A DNA stretch of 24,816 bases from a virus. A program made the translations under genes and the position numbers. A model generated the notes under the pieces. That model saw nothing but the letters and a program-made list of their open reading frames with translations. It was not told the origin of the DNA and ran no database searches. Positions within the stretch are counted from its first letter, which is position 1. Every line of letters begins with the position of its first letter. The stretch is from positions 1-24,816 of IMG/VR virus record IMGVR_UViG_3300022937_000139; one strand, written 5' to 3'. This document shows, one piece after another, positions 12,503 through 21,544 of the stretch.

Positions 12503-14875
12503 ATGAACCAAACTAAAGAGATTCTGATCACTAAGAGAGACGGAAGAAAAGAAAAACTGAATCTTGATAAGATTCACTTTGTAGTAGAAGAAGCATGTAA
12601 TGAATTATCGGGAGTAAGTGCTTCACAGATTGAAATGAATGCCGACCTACAATTTTATGATGGCATGAGCACAGACGAAATTCAAAATATTCTTATTAGA
12701 TCAGCTAACGATTTGATTTCTTTAGACAATCCAAATTATCAGTTTGCGGCCGCAAGGTTGTTGCTTTACGGATTACATAAACAAGTGTACGGTAAATATG
12801 ATCACCTTTCTCTTTCCGAAATTATTGACCTTAACATTAAACGTGGTGTTTATGATCCTTCTATCCGTGAAAAGTATTCTGAAACAGAAATTAAAAAACT
12901 AAACACATATATTAAGCATGACCGTAATGAAGAATTTACTTACGCTGGCTTACGTCAAGTAGTAGATAAGTATTTGTGTCAAGACAGAAGCAACGGAGAT
13001 ATGTTCGAAACTCCGCAGTTTATGTATATGATGATTGCGGCAACACTCTTTGCTGAGTACCCAAAGGAGACACGTTTAAACTACGTGAAAAAATATTATG
13101 ACGCGACCTCACTTTTTAAAATCAACATTCCAACGCCTGTCATGGCAGGAGTGCGTACTCCTATTCGTCAGTTTGCCAGTTGTGTTCTTGTTGATGTGGA
13201 CGATACTCTTCCTAGTATCTTTAGCTCTAATAGCGCAATCGGTTATTACATTGCTCAAAGGGCAGGAATTGGAATCAACTCGGGACGAGTACGAGCTATT
13301 AATTCAAAAATCAGAGGCGGAGAAGTAGCACACACAGGTGTTATTCCGTTTCTAAAAGTATACGAAGCAACAGTAAGAAGTTGTACACAAAATGGTGTAC
13401 GTGGCGGCAGTGCTACTACACATTTCCCATTATGGCATTATGAAATTGAAGATGTTTTAGTTCTTAAAAACAACAAAGGCACAGAAGACAACCGTGTGCG
13501 TAAACTAGACTATTCAATTCAATTAAACAAATTAATGTATGAAAGGTTATTGAGTGGTGGAGAAATTACTCTTTTCTCGCCACATGACGTTCCTGGACTT
13601 TACGAAGCATTTTATGCCGACCAAGATAAGTTTAAAGAACTATATGAAGCGGCAGAAAGAAAAACTTCTATTCGTAAAAAGAAAATTAACGCACAGACCC
13701 TCTTTGGTGCGTTACTAAAAGAAAGAGCAGAAACAGGTCGCATTTATATTATGAATGTTGATCACTGTAATACACACAGTTCATTTAAAGATCCTGTGTA
13801 CATGAGTAACCTATGTCAAGAAATCACGTTGCCTACAAAACCAATACAGCATATTGATGATGACGATGGTGAAATTGCTCTTTGTATCCTAAGTGCTATC
13901 AATATTGGTGGACTAACACTTAATAAGGAAAATGCTGAACTTGAAGAACTATGCGAATTAGCCGTTAGAGCTCTTGAGGAAATCATTGAGTATCAAGGTT
14001 ATCCTGTTAAGGCGGCAGAGAAATCTACCAAAGCTCGACGCTCATTAGGTATTGGCTACATAGGTCTAGCTCATTACCTAGCTAAACATCATGTGAAGTA
14101 CAGCGATAAAGAGGCTTGGAAACTTGTCCACGACCTAACTGAAAGTTTCCAATACTATCTACTTAAGGCAAGTAATACACTTGCTCAAGAACGTGGTGCT
14201 TGTGAATACTTTAATCGTACTAAGTACAGTGACGGCATTCTTCCAATTGATACATACAAGGAAGATGTTGATAGTATAGTTGGTAAAAAATTAAATCATG
14301 ATTGGACTGGTCTTAGAAAATCTATTAAAGAACACGGCTTACGCCACAGCACATTGTCCGCACAGATGCCATCGGAGAGTAGTTCCGTTGTGTCAAACGC
14401 AACAAACGGAATTGAGCCACCTAGAGGATACTTGTCCGTTAAGAAGTCAAAGAAAGGGCCTCTTAAACAGATTGTTCCAGGCTATCAGCAACTAAAGAAC
14501 TTCTATACCCTATTATGGGATATGGAAAGCAACGAAGGTTACATTAATATTGTGGCTGTAATGCAAAAGTTCTTTGATCAAGCCATTAGTGGTAACTGGT
14601 CATACAATCCTCTACAGTACGAAAACAATGAAGTACCTATGAGTGTTATGATGAAGGACATGTTGACAACTTACAAGATGGGTTGGAAAACAAGTTACTA
14701 TCAAAACACATACGACTTTAAGGGTGCTGAAGATGATTTGGAAGATAAGGCAGTTGACACAGCACAAGAAGATGTTAAACTAAATGGTATGAATGGCCAT
14801 GTGAATGGTGTCAATGGACATTCACCAAACACTGAAACACAAGATGACGAGCATTGTGATGCTTGTGCCATTTAA
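12503..14875 (+). CDS. nrdA: Class Ia ribonucleoside-diphosphate reductase, alpha subunit
   Basis: A 790 aa protein that reduces ribonucleoside diphosphates to deoxy forms with the beta subunit encoded next. Residues 5-95 form an ATP-cone (TKRDGRKEKLNLDKI). FASCVLVDVDDT carries C227, the first redox Cys; SNLCQEI holds N436, C438 (thiyl radical) and E440; C461 in IALCILSA is the redox partner. MPSESSSVVSNATNGIEPPR (near 625-650) is the phosphate-binding block, and TSYYQNT carries the two radical-transfer Tyr. The tail ends CDACAI (C785, C788), the shuttle Cys pair. It is slightly longer than E. coli NrdA (761) because of a linker with NGMNGHVNGVNGH before the Cys pair. nrdB begins seven bases downstream. 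Transcription is probably from the late-type promoter upstream. Confidence 0.98.
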   Translation: MNQTKEILITKRDGRKEKLNLDKIHFVVEEACNELSGVSASQIEMNADLQFYDGMSTDEIQNILIRSANDLISLDNPNYQFAAARLLLYGLHKQVYGKYDHLSLSEIIDLNIKRGVYDPSIREKYSETEIKKLNTYIKHDRNEEFTYAGLRQVVDKYLCQDRSNGDMFETPQFMYMMIAATLFAEYPKETRLNYVKKYYDATSLFKINIPTPVMAGVRTPIRQFASCVLVDVDDTLPSIFSSNSAIGYYIAQRAGIGINSGRVRAINSKIRGGEVAHTGVIPFLKVYEATVRSCTQNGVRGGSATTHFPLWHYEIEDVLVLKNNKGTEDNRVRKLDYSIQLNKLMYERLLSGGEITLFSPHDVPGLYEAFYADQDKFKELYEAAERKTSIRKKKINAQTLFGALLKERAETGRIYIMNVDHCNTHSSFKDPVYMSNLCQEITLPTKPIQHIDDDDGEIALCILSAINIGGLTLNKENAELEELCELAVRALEEIIEYQGYPVKAAEKSTKARRSLGIGYIGLAHYLAKHHVKYSDKEAWKLVHDLTESFQYYLLKASNTLAQERGACEYFNRTKYSDGILPIDTYKEDVDSIVGKKLNHDWTGLRKSIKEHGLRHSTLSAQMPSESSSVVSNATNGIEPPRGYLSVKKSKKGPLKQIVPGYQQLKNFYTLLWDMESNEGYINIVAVMQKFFDQAISGNWSYNPLQYENNEVPMSVMMKDMLTTYKMGWKTSYYQNTYDFKGAEDDLEDKAVDTAQEDVKLNGMNGHVNGVNGHSPNTETQDDEHCDACAI

Positions 14876-14881
14876 GGATTT

Positions 14882-16015
14882 ATGAGCAAGAAAGAAGGTA
14901 AAAATAAGCGAATGAGTAAAACAGTATTCAACAGAGATAAGGTAGATTTCACTAAAGAGTATATGTTCTTTGGAGCGGATCAAAACACACAGAGATATGA
15001 CGTTTTCAAATATCCAGAGTATGATAAACTTAATCAAACAATGTTAAGTTATTTCTGGCGTCCAGAAGAAGTTAGTCTACAAAAGGACAGAGGCGATTAC
15101 GCAGACTTTCGTCCAGAACAAAAACATATTTTCACAAGTAATCTAAAATATCAAACACTGTTGGATAGTGTACAAGGTCGCGGACCTTGTTTGAGCTTTT
15201 TGCCTTACTGTTCTAATCCAGAGCTAGAAAGTTGTATTGTGGCCTGGGACTTTTTTGAAACTATTCACAGTCGTTCATATACACACATTGTAAAAAATGT
15301 ATATCCAGATCCGGCAGAAGTATTTGATACTATCCTAGATGATGAAAAAATTATTGAACGTGCTGTAAGTGTAACTAAAAATTACGATGCGTTTAACGAA
15401 ATTGCTGACGCACATTTTCACAAAGGTAAAGGCACAATTTACGATGTGAAAAAAGCATTGTACAAAGCAATGATGACTGTAAACATTCTTGAAGGCTTAC
15501 GCTTTTATGTTTCGTTTGCTTGTACGTTTGCGTTCGGTGAACTTAAACTAATGGAAGGATCTGCTAAGATTATTTCACTAATTGCTCGAGATGAAGCAAC
15601 ACACTTGAATTTGTCAACACACATTCTTAAGCATTGGGCTAAAGGTAACGATGATCCAGACTTTGTCAAGATTGCTAAAGAGTGTGAAGAAGAAATGTAT
15701 GATATGTGGCGTGAGTGTGTAGAAGAAGAAAAGCGTTGGGCAGACTACTTGTTCAAAGACGGATCAATGATTGGTCTTAACACTAACCTACTTCATGCGT
15801 ATGTTGAGTTTATTGCCAACAAAAGACTTAAAGCTCTTGGTATGAAAACAATTTATGATCGTCCACTAAACACTAACCCACTACCTTGGACACAGCATTG
15901 GTTATCTAGTGCTGGACTTCAAGTTGCTCCACAAGAAACAGAAGTTGAATCTTACTTAATTGGTGGAGTGAAGCAAGATATCTCCGAGGACACATTTAAA
16001 GGATTTAAACTATGA
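14882..16015 (+). CDS. nrdB: Class Ia ribonucleoside-diphosphate reductase, beta subunit
   Basis: A 377 aa radical-generating subunit. Di-iron ligands are all visible: D95 (TLLDSVQG), E126 and H129 (FFETIHSRSY), E204 (LEGLRFY), E238 and H241 (ARDEATH). The radical Tyr is Y133 in SRSY. The C-terminal half (DYLFKDGSMIGLN, VAPQETEVESYLIG) is typical NrdB, and the acidic C-terminal tail that docks on NrdA is present (SEDTFKGFKL). The retained Tyr and carboxylates make this a standard Fe-type class Ia protein rather than a Tyr-less variant. AAGGA before the ATG fixes the start; an alternative Met at residue 11 is less likely. The stop overlaps the glutaredoxin start (ATGA). Confidence 0.98.
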   Translation: MSKKEGKNKRMSKTVFNRDKVDFTKEYMFFGADQNTQRYDVFKYPEYDKLNQTMLSYFWRPEEVSLQKDRGDYADFRPEQKHIFTSNLKYQTLLDSVQGRGPCLSFLPYCSNPELESCIVAWDFFETIHSRSYTHIVKNVYPDPAEVFDTILDDEKIIERAVSVTKNYDAFNEIADAHFHKGKGTIYDVKKALYKAMMTVNILEGLRFYVSFACTFAFGELKLMEGSAKIISLIARDEATHLNLSTHILKHWAKGNDDPDFVKIAKECEEEMYDMWRECVEEEKRWADYLFKDGSMIGLNTNLLHAYVEFIANKRLKALGMKTIYDRPLNTNPLPWTQHWLSSAGLQVAPQETEVESYLIGGVKQDISEDTFKGFKL

Positions 16016-16269
16016 GTATAGAAATTTGGGGCAAGCCTTTTTGCCCATCATGTCAAAAAGCAAAAGCAGTGTGCGAAAACAGAGGTTTCAAATACACTTA
16101 TAAAGAACTTGGAAAAGACTTCGAACGTGAAGAAGTTTTTGAACAGTTTCCGGGTGCTAAAACATTTCCACAGATTAAAGTTAACAGCCAAGCAGTAGGT
16201 GGATATGAAACTTTTATGAAGTATCTTGATGACACAGGTTACAACGGTACTGGACATTCACTAGGATAA
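16012..16269 (+). CDS. Glutaredoxin
   Basis: An 85 aa thioredoxin-fold protein with active site FCPSC (C11, C14), the cis-Pro loop TFPQI (P53) and the glutathione-binding GGYETF near 64-69. Length and motifs are those of a classic dithiol glutaredoxin. Directly coupled to nrdB (ATGA overlap, with AAGGA upstream), it almost certainly re-reduces the NrdA Cys pair during phage dNTP synthesis, like NrdC/Grx of T4. The CPSC active site differs from the CPYC of most bacterial Grx. Confidence 0.95.
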   Translation: MSIEIWGKPFCPSCQKAKAVCENRGFKYTYKELGKDFEREEVFEQFPGAKTFPQIKVNSQAVGGYETFMKYLDDTGYNGTGHSLG

Positions 16270-18181: not shown

Positions 18182-18601
18182 ATGGACAAAATCAAAAAAT
18201 ATATCTACATGGGAATAGGATTTTTCTGTGTTGGTATGGCATATATCGGCTTCGTAACACCCGGTATACCTTTTTCAATATTTCTAGTAGCCGCGGCTTG
18301 GGCATTTGCTAAAAGCTCACCTAAAATGGAAGCCTGGCTATATAACCATCCTTGGTTCGGTAAGTTTCTAACTAACTGGAACAAGAAACGTGTATTTCCT
18401 ACAAAAGGAAAATACGCAATGATCGTAGTAATGGCATCGACATTGCTGATCACTTACCATGCTACTGGCAACCTTAAAGCAGTACTATGGAGCGGAGGCT
18501 TTATGGCGTTAGTCGCTATATGGGCTTGGAGATATCCAGGTTCGTTAGAAGAACATGCTCGTAGAATTAAAGAAGGTAAAAGAGTAGCGTGGCTGAAATG
18601 A
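18182..18601 (+). CDS. DUF454 (YbaN-like) inner-membrane protein
   Basis: A 139 aa membrane protein with four hydrophobic segments (about 9-26, 29-44, 79-92 and 99-113). The sequence FVTPGIPFSIFLVAAAWAFA, then SSPKMEAWLYNHPWFG and NWNKKRVFPTKGKYA follows the DUF454/YbaN pattern (G-x-x-x-P-x-x-P-F-x-x-x-x-x-x-x-F-A-(R/K)-S-S-P, then W-L-x-x-H-x-x-F-G). The function of DUF454 is unknown; it lies in the inner membrane. It is usually a cellular gene, so here it is a candidate acquired host gene. AGGAG is five bases upstream; its end overlaps the next start (ATGA). Confidence 0.85.
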   Translation: MDKIKKYIYMGIGFFCVGMAYIGFVTPGIPFSIFLVAAAWAFAKSSPKMEAWLYNHPWFGKFLTNWNKKRVFPTKGKYAMIVVMASTLLITYHATGNLKAVLWSGGFMALVAIWAWRYPGSLEEHARRIKEGKRVAWLK

Positions 18602-19224
18602 AACATGAAATAATTCCACTATTTTCAATTCCTTTGTATAAAGCGGAACTTTCTCCACTTGACCCTCTTATGTTTCAAAAGTTAACAAACAATGAGTGGG
18701 AGAAAACAGAAGGCTTCGTGACACACGTTGAAACAGCAGAAAGACATTTGCTAGACAGACCTGAATACAAGGGATTGAAAAAAGCAATACAACAACACGT
18801 TGATTATTTTGCTTACGAAGTATTAGGTTGTCAGCGTGATTTAACTTGGGAAATTACTACAAGTTGGGTTAACAGATCAAAGAATGGAGACTACCATGCT
18901 AATCATTGGCACAGTAACAGTTTGATTAGTGGAGTATTTTACATTTACACAAATCCAAGCAGTGGCGCTATTGTATTCCATAAAGATAAGAATCATAAAA
19001 ATTTGTGGGGAGACACTCTGCGTATTGATTGGGATAAAGAAACAGACTATAACTCAGAAGCGGTAGGTATACTACCTAAAACAAATGAACTTCTTATGTT
19101 CCCTAGTATTCTAGCACACTCAGTACTAAGCAATACTTCAAACGAAAGTCGTTATAGTCTAGCGTTTAATGTATTTCCAAGAGGAGTATTTGGCGAGTCA
19201 GGAAATAGCGAGCTAACACTATGA
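18598..19224 (+). CDS. 2OG-Fe(II) oxygenase-like protein (TIGR02466/PF13759 type), paralogue 1
   Basis: The frame is open from GTG 18589, but ATG 18598 (ATGA overlap) gives the family start MKHEIIPLFSIPLYKAEL; 208 aa. SWVNRSKNGDYHANHWHSNS followed by LISGVFYI is the family's iron-site region, where an H-x-H-x-x-S replaces the usual H-x-D. FPSILAHSVLSNTSNESRYS followed by LAFNVFPRG gives the distal His and the 2OG-binding Arg. Members are found in many phages and marine bacteria; their substrates are unknown. It is followed by a tandem paralogue. Confidence 0.85.
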   Translation: MKHEIIPLFSIPLYKAELSPLDPLMFQKLTNNEWEKTEGFVTHVETAERHLLDRPEYKGLKKAIQQHVDYFAYEVLGCQRDLTWEITTSWVNRSKNGDYHANHWHSNSLISGVFYIYTNPSSGAIVFHKDKNHKNLWGDTLRIDWDKETDYNSEAVGILPKTNELLMFPSILAHSVLSNTSNESRYSLAFNVFPRGVFGESGNSELTL

Positions 19225-19856
19225 TGGAACATACTGTTACACCGTTATTCCCTATCCCGTTATATTCTGCTTCGTTAGGATCTTTAGAAAACAACATTCG
19301 TAATTCTGTTAACAGTTTAGAATTCGAAAGAATGCCATCAGAAGACGGTCATTACACTGTTGATAAGTTTGTGCTAGACAGAGAAGAATTTGCTCCTTTA
19401 AAACAAAAAATACAAAATCATATTGAGCAGTTTTTATATGAAGTATTAAATTGTGATCCGGAAGTTAATTTTGAAATACAAAATAGTTGGATCAACAAGC
19501 ACAACGAAAATGATTCAGCAGGCTTACACAATCATTCAAACAGTTTGATAAGTGGAGTATATTATATTGATGTAGACGATGTGTCTGGTGCTATATCATT
19601 TTTAAAAGATAAGGGACATATTAACCTATGGCCAGACGTGGTTAATATTCAAACAGACTACGATAGCAAAAAATTAAATATCTTTAATACTCAATGGTGG
19701 AACTATATTCCAAAAAAGAATGATTTAATTATGTTTCCTTCAATGCTGTATCACCAGGTAGAAGAAAATAAATCCAAGAAAATTCGCTATAGTCTAGCAT
19801 TCAATGTATTTCCAAGAGGAAATCTTGGCGGTACTCTTAATAAATTAAAAATTTAA
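19221..19856 (+). CDS. 2OG-Fe(II) oxygenase-like protein (TIGR02466/PF13759 type), paralogue 2
   Basis: A 211 aa paralogue of the preceding protein: HTVTPLFPIPLYSASLGSLE, NSWINKHNENDSAGLHNHSN followed by SLISGVYYI, and FPSMLYHQV then RYSLAFNVFPRG match block for block. The middle (20-60) and the 140-165 insert differ most, suggesting that substrate recognition has diverged. Two adjacent ATGs overlap the previous stop (ATGATGG); either can start the protein. It ends one base before the -35 of the tmRNA promoter. Confidence 0.85.
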   Translation: MMEHTVTPLFPIPLYSASLGSLENNIRNSVNSLEFERMPSEDGHYTVDKFVLDREEFAPLKQKIQNHIEQFLYEVLNCDPEVNFEIQNSWINKHNENDSAGLHNHSNSLISGVYYIDVDDVSGAISFLKDKGHINLWPDVVNIQTDYDSKKLNIFNTQWWNYIPKKNDLIMFPSMLYHQVEENKSKKIRYSLAFNVFPRGNLGGTLNKLKI

Positions 19857-19857
19857 C

Positions 19858-19886
19858 TTGACAAAATCCAAAATAGATGCTTAAAT
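19858..19886 (+). promoter_or_regulatory. Sigma70-type promoter of the tmRNA gene
   Basis: TTGACA (19858-19863), 17 bases, then TTAAAT (19881-19886). RNA should start near 19892-19895. The -10 with the next A reads TTAAATA and could double as a degenerate late promoter. Confidence 0.75.
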
Positions 19887-19892
19887 AGCATT

Positions 19893-20190
19893 GTAACGTT
19901 GAAGCCAATCAACGACAATCTGGACCGGGGGGCGGTACCCCGCACCTCCACCATAAGCACTCTATCCCAACCTGACGAGGGTGGATCGTAAAGAACTAAA
20001 CAGAGTGCTTATGATGGGGGTGAACTAGGATCGACAGGTGTAAGAGAGAACGTGGAGTTACCGGTAGGCGATGACCGTAAATCAAGCAAAAAAACTAAAC
20101 GCAAACGATAACTTTGCATCTGAGGATTACGCCCTAGCGGCATAATCACTCGGGGTGGGCAACCGGCCTAGCAACAGAAACGGTTGCACT
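19893..20190 (+). ncRNA. ssrA: Circularly permuted two-piece tmRNA
   Basis: Transfer-messenger RNA that rescues stalled ribosomes and tags the peptide for proteolysis. The acceptor piece comes first (about 19893-19953): a hairpin CGTTG/CAACG, a T-arm CGGGG/CCCCG (19926-19930/19938-19942) with loop GGCGGTA, then CACCTCC, A and an encoded CCA (19951-19953). After a 62-base spacer the coding piece starts GGGGGTG (20016-20022), which pairs with CACCTCC over seven bases, the third pair being the G-U that AlaRS needs. AACTAGGATCGACAGG is the conserved 5' tmRNA sequence. The resume codon is GCA 20101, and the frame to TAA 20143-20145 encodes ANDNFASEDYALAA, an ALAA-ending tag of alphaproteobacterial look. 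A GCAACC/GGTTGC stem (20159-20164/20182-20187) suits a pseudoknot. The 3' end is approximate. SmpB is not seen in this window. Confidence 0.95.
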
Positions 20191-20193
20191 TCA

Positions 20194-20201
20194 AATAAAT
20201 A
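20194..20201 (+). promoter_or_regulatory. T4-type late promoter AATAAATA, predicting a leaderless mRNA
   Basis: AATAAATA-C ends at 20201. T4 spacing puts +1 exactly at 20207, the A of the next ATG. No Shine-Dalgarno lies between the tmRNA and that ATG. Confidence 0.55.
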
Positions 20202-20206
20202 CTAAC

Positions 20207-20809
20207 ATGAACAAAACTTTAGAACTTCTTTATACTCCGGTTATTCCTATAGAAAATTATACCGGCGCTGGCTGGAACAAAGGTCTTAGTGCTATTTGGA
20301 CTGGTGAACTATCAGATAATATGTCTGTTAGTTTTAACGGACAACCATTATGGGAATCTATATGTCTACCGAAAGAAAATATTGTTTCTTCAGGATCAAC
20401 ACAAACAACTACAGTTAACTTTGATCCTAGTATTACTAATACTATATCATTTGTTAATGAGCAACAATATGGCGATTATAGAATTAGACCGTTTGGCAAT
20501 ATTACAATAACGCCACTATCATCTAACCAATATCAGATCGATTTTGTTTATAATTGGAGAGATGAATGCTCAGAAGAAAATTATATAGAGATTCAAAAAG
20601 GTTTCAAAGTAAAACAAGAAGGGTTTACGTTTGAAGTTAATAATTTTAAAACAATTGAAGAAAGTAGAATTATACCAGGTATTAAGTATACATCAAATCA
20701 CACATTAACTTGGAATACAACTAATCCTATAATTTTTACAATTACAGAATCTGGCCAAACAATTAAAGATATTCCTTATAAAAATTCTCACCAATTTACC
20801 CTAACTTAG
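20207..20809 (+). CDS. Beta-rich phage protein of unknown function (200 aa)
   Basis: A 200 aa protein rich in Thr, Asn, Ile and Tyr with alternating beta-type hydrophobic residues (IRPFGNITITPLSSNQYQID, YTSNHTLTWNTTNPIIFTIT), and no signal peptide or membrane segment. The composition suggests a fibre- or virion-associated beta protein; no family is recognised. There is no ribosome-binding site, and the upstream late promoter would place the RNA 5' end on the ATG. It ends just before a sigma70-type promoter. Confidence 0.65.
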   Translation: MNKTLELLYTPVIPIENYTGAGWNKGLSAIWTGELSDNMSVSFNGQPLWESICLPKENIVSSGSTQTTTVNFDPSITNTISFVNEQQYGDYRIRPFGNITITPLSSNQYQIDFVYNWRDECSEENYIEIQKGFKVKQEGFTFEVNNFKTIEESRIIPGIKYTSNHTLTWNTTNPIIFTITESGQTIKDIPYKNSHQFTLT

Positions 20810-20841: not shown

Positions 20842-20914
20842 AATAACTTAGAAATAGTTAAAGTACGTTATTTCTAATGCTTTTATTAACTTTAAATAAA
20901 GTATGAGGATTTTG

Positions 20915-21544
20915 ATGAGACTAAACATATCTATGTTTTTGGTAGTATTAACTACCACCCTATGTTTTGCTGACATTAGTGTTGGTGAGACAATAGCACT
21001 GAAAGACAATAACGGAAAGATTACGTATCTTATAAATGGAAAAGAAACTAATAACATTCCTGAATTGTACACAAAAGAATCAGAGCCAGAACTTTACTGT
21101 TTGGCTTTGAATATCTACCATGAAAGCAGATCGGATAACATGGCTGGTCAAGCGGCCGTTGCTGATGTTGTGCTTAATAGGGTAACCGATGCCAGATATC
21201 CAAATACCATTTGTGAAGTTGTAAAGGAAGGTCCTATTAGAGAAAGTTGGAAAACTAGACAAGATCCAAATTTATCCGATAGTGAACGAAAATTCAACCC
21301 TGTTCGAAATCGTTGTCAATTTAGTTGGTGGTGTGACGGTAAAAGCGATGAGCCACGACAGCCATTGGCTTGGAGAAAAGCACAAGAAATCGCTTATCAT
21401 CTTGTTCACAACAACTTATTTCGTGGAATATCAGAAGGTGCTACACACTATCATGCTACCTATGTAGATCCACATTGGAATAAATCAATGATTGAAATTG
21501 GACGAATTGGTGAACATATTTTCTATAGAAGTTTACCAAAATAG
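20915..21544 (+). CDS. Secreted cell-wall hydrolase, SleB/Hydrolase_2 family
   Basis: A 209 aa lytic enzyme. ATG 20915 is preferred over ATG 20903 because GAGGA (20905-20909) is five bases upstream. Residues 1-19 (MRLNISMFLVVLTTTLCFA) are a Sec signal peptide. LALNIYHESRSDNMAGQAAV, then ADVVLNRV is the SleB hallmark, with E70 the probable catalytic Glu; CQFSWWCDGK, AWRKAQEIAYHL and GATHYHATYV complete the domain. SleB-type proteins are lytic transglycosylases that cut peptidoglycan. Export by the host Sec system implies action in the periplasm, as an endolysin or for superinfection exclusion or wall remodelling. The sigma70-type promoter suggests it is not purely late. Confidence 0.9.
   Translation: MRLNISMFLVVLTTTLCFADISVGETIALKDNNGKITYLINGKETNNIPELYTKESEPELYCLALNIYHESRSDNMAGQAAVADVVLNRVTDARYPNTICEVVKEGPIRESWKTRQDPNLSDSERKFNPVRNRCQFSWWCDGKSDEPRQPLAWRKAQEIAYHLVHNNLFRGISEGATHYHATYVDPHWNKSMIEIGRIGEHIFYRSLPK

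Follow-up and report, generated by a model that had tools for sequence, protein, structure and literature searches.

Permuted tmRNA genes have previously been reported in dozens of aquatic phages. Buchholz et al. (2022) listed 402 phages with a tmRNA, of which 53 were called as two-piece by ARAGORN and 50 of these 53 were aquatic (PMC9004378), and a tmRNA database published in 2025 holds 79 bacteriophage tmRNA sequences and is the source of the Rfam model RF04321 (PMC11915505). The locus described here, carried on a virus record of 24,816 bases (the window, by which we mean the whole stretch of DNA analysed), is a new example. A sequence-only reading of this DNA had recognized the gene and left open whether a permuted phage tmRNA had been described before; the 2022 survey (PMC9004378) answers that question.

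Among the closest described systems is that of phage Melnitz, in which a permuted alphaproteobacterial-type tmRNA is likewise encoded by a T4-like aquatic phage, with nrdA and nrdB in the genome and a promoter directly upstream (PMC9004378). The window differs in its neighbouring genes, in having its own tag and in the lack of a detectable glutamine riboswitch: a search for a glnA-family riboswitch beside the tmRNA, as claimed for Melnitz, gave no match at E values up to 5 between positions 19500 and 20500. Permuted tmRNAs were also found in the annotated phages Mosig EXVC030M, HTVC008M, DSS3_MAL1 and MD18. The Pelagibacter phages HTVC008M and Mosig match RF04321 at 90.6 and 93.6 bits, respectively, and are linked to the window through nrdA (Mosig) and 2OG-Fe(II) oxygenases (both phages); their tags are shorter than that of the window, whose tmRNA shares only 56% identity with its Mosig counterpart across the aligned core. 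The roseobacter phages DSS3_MAL1, where the tmRNA is annotated in the record, and MD18, where it is not, share 92.5% identity with the window across a 40-base stretch of the acceptor piece, but differ from it in their tag (ANTNAAPMEMAIAA), their large tRNA clusters and an otherwise unrelated neighbourhood. A match to GOLLD RNA (169.6 bits) was observed close to the tmRNA of Phaeobacter phage MD18 (L125, 2055-2522, - strand). Compared with the two-piece tmRNA of alphaproteobacteria (RF01849), the window shares gene order, acceptor and T arms, GGATCGAC, the layout of resume codon and tag, and an intervening hairpin, whereas its 3' domain is shortened, its promoter is different and its score is 114 bits, where rhizobial genes reach 303-310.

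An intact two-piece gene in T4-like phage DNA

Two covariance models, ARAGORN and direct reading agree on a permuted tmRNA at 19893-20190, as the sequence-only reading had claimed, and the searches with the Rfam alpha_tmRNA model and ARAGORN that it proposed as a check were both positive. ARAGORN calls a permuted tmRNA at 19859-20236 with the tag ANDNFASEDYALAA, the only tmRNA that it reports over the whole window, alongside no tRNA. The tmRNA_permuted model RF04321 matches at 19893-20145 (128.1 bits, cutoff 47, E 4e-25, model positions 1-213) and alpha_tmRNA RF01849 at 19854-20190 (114.3 bits, cutoff 50, E 7.6e-31, model positions 1-355), both above their curated cutoffs and far beyond chance; the alignment to RF01849 needs a large deletion in the 3' domain, and the pseudoknots of the coding half are not part of either model as used. 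At a loose threshold, Rfam gave no other credible family near the tmRNA.

The acceptor piece (19893-19953, + strand) precedes the coding piece (20016-20190, + strand), with an intervening segment between them (19954-20015) that is expected to be cut out. The acceptor piece contains the T arm CGGGG-GGCGGTA-CCCCG, with a five-pair stem, and the 3' acceptor strand CACCTCC followed by an encoded ACCA, so that it reads ...CACCTCCACCA at its end at 19953; the coding piece opens with the 5' acceptor strand GGGGGTG at 20016 and continues through a D-loop-like region with AGGATCGAC to the resume codon, the tag and the 3' domain. The mature RNA ends are predicted at 19953 and 20016. Paired with each other, GGGGGTG and CACCTCC form seven pairs including G3-U70, which together with the T arm and CCA make up an alanine-accepting type of tRNA-like domain. 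From the resume codon, an open frame (20101-20145, + strand; GCA AAC GAT AAC TTT GCA TCT GAG GAT TAC GCC CTA GCG GCA TAA) encodes ANDNFASEDYALAA, ends in a hydrophobic protease signal and closes with TAA at 20143-20145. Each of the features previously read from the letters, namely the CCA end, the start of the coding half, the seven-pair stem with G3-U70 and the tag, is thereby recovered, and the permuted order, intact structure and RF01849 match uphold the assignment to the alphaproteobacterial kind.

In the predicted fold, the intervening segment is closed by a ten-pair stem, TAAGCACTCT (19954-19963) with AGAGTGCTTA (20002-20011), that lengthens the acceptor helix in the precursor. Of the 86 phage intervening segments long enough to be assessed, 79 have a closing helix of eight or more pairs, compared with about 6% of shuffles. 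By reading of the sequence, with no shuffle scoring, the tmRNA genes of Sinorhizobium, Shinella and Methylobacterium appear to share the stem; we therefore reject the idea of a phage invention, and the closing stem seems to be part of a general precursor design.

The surrounding genes comprise ribonucleotide reductase subunits, a glutaredoxin, several 2OG-Fe(II) oxygenases, an exonuclease, a tail spike, a virion structural protein and a cell-wall hydrolase, and are those of a T4-like myovirus, probably a marine one. Upstream on the + strand lie nrdA (12503-14875; phrog_84, E reported as 0), nrdB (14882-16015; phrog_86) and a glutaredoxin/thioredoxin-like gene (16012-16269; phrog_22), all three syntenic neighbours of the tmRNA, followed by two 2OG-Fe(II) oxygenase genes (18589-19224 and 19221-19856; both phrog_81), the second of which abuts the tmRNA promoter. 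An ORF of 200 amino acids directly downstream (20207-20809) has no relatives in the phage records, viral contigs or PHROGs searched, and is followed by a syntenic cell-wall hydrolase, or endolysin, gene (20903-21544, + strand; phrog_938, PF07486). The product of nrdA, the large ribonucleotide reductase subunit, is closest to that of Pelagibacter phage Mosig (69% identical), with cyanophages close behind, a relationship that suggests a marine phage without naming its host.

Conservation, synteny and the question of the host

Relatives were retrieved from IMG/VR with a broad T-arm/acceptor pattern and a tag pattern, the latter giving at least 119 matches in viral contigs. Among the matches listed, 228 loci were taken up, in which ARAGORN identified 137 permuted and 6 standard tmRNAs; Rfam added permuted tmRNAs that ARAGORN missed (L007, L059, L078, L042 and L012). 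The order nrdA-nrdB-grx, tmRNA, endolysin or later genes is kept in relatives such as L007, L059, L033, L105, L114 and L078, and across viral contigs that share genes with the window the tmRNA stands after nrdA-nrdB-grx-16273 and before a nuclease, the endolysin or the 22732 ORF. Its closest counterpart among the tmRNAs compared, in L033, is 75% identical. Since synteny is kept while the RNA is at most 75% identical to any compared, the tmRNA appears to have been maintained rather than freshly captured. A narrow pattern for a very similar T arm and acceptor matched no bacterial genome. The tmRNA of L114 (2855-3231) has an unusually long frame, given by ARAGORN as ANDNALSNVTFVDFSAPVTAVNEDFALAA, and from the look of the alignment that of L042 (11917-12421) is similarly long.

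The stems themselves are conserved through compensation. With the best-pairing register chosen, a full seven-pair acceptor stem can be placed in 130 of 140 permuted tmRNA sequences, almost all of them from phages, and its variants (GGGGGCG/CGCCTCC in 58, GGGGGTG/CACCTCC in 50, GGGGCCG/CGGCTCC and GGGGCTG/CAGCTCC in 5 each) differ mostly by compensatory changes; because of this choice of register, and because U70 was fixed in the pattern that retrieved some of the sequences, the count is supportive and not unbiased. Seven pairs with G3-U70 are also found in 56 of the 62 sequences fetched otherwise, mostly by the tag pattern. A complete five-pair T stem, built from many pair types, is present in 129 of the 130.

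The same relatives bear on the proposal, made from the sequence alone, that the tag predicts the host clade. This proposal is not supported, on three counts: beta_tmRNA is the best-scoring model for L033 and L059, both syntenic relatives of the window phage; Mosig and HTVC008M infect a single Pelagibacter host strain yet differ in their tags (GEDNFALAA and ANFNEYALAA, respectively); and the ssrA of Melnitz falls in the alphaproteobacterial group, whereas its host OM43 is gammaproteobacterial (PMC9004378). The tmRNA subtype varies within one phage lineage, and neither subtype nor tag appears to label the host.

Ribosome rescue and competing explanations

We consider it probable, at roughly 0.77, that the locus is a complete and functional two-piece tmRNA of a T4-like phage which would be processed and charged by the host and would act with host SmpB and proteases to add ribosome rescue. 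The intact anatomy, the conserved stems and the synteny are its basis, and we infer expression, processing, charging, use of host SmpB and a benefit to the phage as follows. A single precursor would be transcribed from the promoter of the tmRNA itself and would fold such that the stem of the intervening segment continues the acceptor helix, after which host RNase P and 3' nucleases would cleave it to give a coding RNA and an acceptor RNA with CCA at its end. G3-U70 would direct charging by the host AlaRS, host SmpB would carry the tmRNA to stalled ribosomes, and the tag ANDNFASEDYALAA would mark unfinished proteins for host proteases, giving extra rescue capacity during infection while host mRNA is degraded. 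SmpB (PF01668) was found in 10 of 14 control genomes and in none of the 20 phage records searched, four complete isolate genomes included; because of this absence, host SmpB would probably have to serve the phage tmRNA, although an SmpB gene may lie outside the window, which is a fragment of its genome. The locus then represents a clean further case of aquatic T4-like phages, which often carry their own rescue RNA and apparently leave SmpB to the host.

The wide variation among phage tags (GEDNFALAA, ANFNEYALAA, ANDNFASEDYALAA, ANTNAAPMEMAIAA and DNHIDYRMAA) could instead indicate that the phage tmRNA mainly redirects tagging, either by sending tagged proteins to another protease or by marking host proteins for amino-acid recycling, as has been proposed for Melnitz (PMC9004378). 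We regard this as unlikely: most phage tags compared, including that of the window, have the usual LAA end and an ordinary bacterial look, and tmRNA is recruited by stalled ribosomes and not by the identity of the protein. It is less likely still that the RNA acts as a decoy, competing with the host tmRNA or inhibiting it, in the manner of the CDS-less tmRNA of mycobacteriophage DS6A. Work cited in PMC11915505 reports that a frameless phage tmRNA-like RNA expressed in E. coli inhibits the endogenous tmRNA, but the window tmRNA keeps a resume codon, a tag, a stop and a coding half, all of them needless for a decoy.

That the gene is an unused passenger, an ssrA acquired by imprecise excision or recombination, seems very improbable, even though phages commonly integrate at host ssrA genes and such an origin was suggested for the ssrA of Melnitz (PMC9004378): the window has no identified integrase, the lineage appears to be lytic and T4-like, the position of the gene is syntenic in diverged relatives, and its stems and promoter are conserved under divergence. 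A bacterial chromosome or a misassembly, to which the 24.8-kb length of the record and the lack of identified capsid or terminase genes in it might point, is scarcely credible given that the record is viral, that phage gene families flank the tmRNA, that other viral contigs keep the same order, and that permuted tmRNAs occur in complete genomes of phage isolates; the view that the DNA is phage and not bacterial, taken in the sequence-only reading, holds.

A putative promoter shared among phage tmRNAs

Directly upstream of the acceptor piece is a putative promoter (19858-19888, + strand) composed of TTGACA (19858-19863), a 17-nt spacer ending in ATGC (an extended -10) and TTAAATA (19881-19887). 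It matches the sigma-70 consensus at 10 of 12 positions, allowing TTGACA/TTAAAT, and its second box is one base from the late-box core ATAAATA, making it a weaker form of an element that recurs upstream of other phage tmRNAs at a roughly constant distance from the CCA end. The window element is missed by the generic promoter scan, which requires the second hexamer to have A in position 2. Across 131 distinct upstream regions, sigma-70 boxes with at least 9 of 12 matches are found in 99, of which 83 have a spacing of 17 and 59 contain TATAAATA; under a stricter rule, a TTGACA-like box combined with TATAAATA, the element is found in 54 of the 131 regions, whereas elsewhere in these loci 11 of 657 sigma-70-like sites have it. 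The shared form is TTGACA-N12-TRTGN-TATAAATA, also with TTGACW as first box (e.g. L138, L096, L035 and L047), in which TRTGN before the second box is an extended -10. The spacer sequences vary, forming 29 groups at 60% identity, yet the element itself is conserved.

The sequence TATAAATA is the T4 late promoter, and overlapping early and late promoters have been described in RB49 and cyanophage S-PM2 (PMC2984593). We therefore put forward, tentatively and at somewhat less than even odds, that in many T4-like phages the permuted tmRNA is driven by a single fused promoter, in which the -10 of a sigma-70 early box (TTGACA, extended -10) doubles as the T4 late box TATAAATA. No such promoter is obvious upstream of the tmRNA in Mosig, HTVC008M or the roseobacter phages DSS3_MAL1 and MD18. 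The element may alternatively have been inherited with the gene from a host and not built by phages; the three bacterial tmRNA genes compared (Sinorhizobium, Shinella and Methylobacterium) lack TATAAATA. We have not seen a fused promoter of phage tmRNAs described: literature on tmRNA and the late box, judged by title and abstract, consisted only of general phage-genome papers, and we claim no priority.

If the fused promoter is real, phage tmRNA may be produced at both early and late times, from the first minutes of infection into its late phase, and the phage would need ribosome rescue throughout rather than early on only; the shared promoter thus yields a simple, testable prediction on when phages need rescue. 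Elsewhere in the window, NATAAATA motifs occur on the + strand at 203, 6120, 7071, 7932, 10421, 16473 and 20194, each 13-111 bases 5' of an ORF start, and are consistent with T4-type late promoters.
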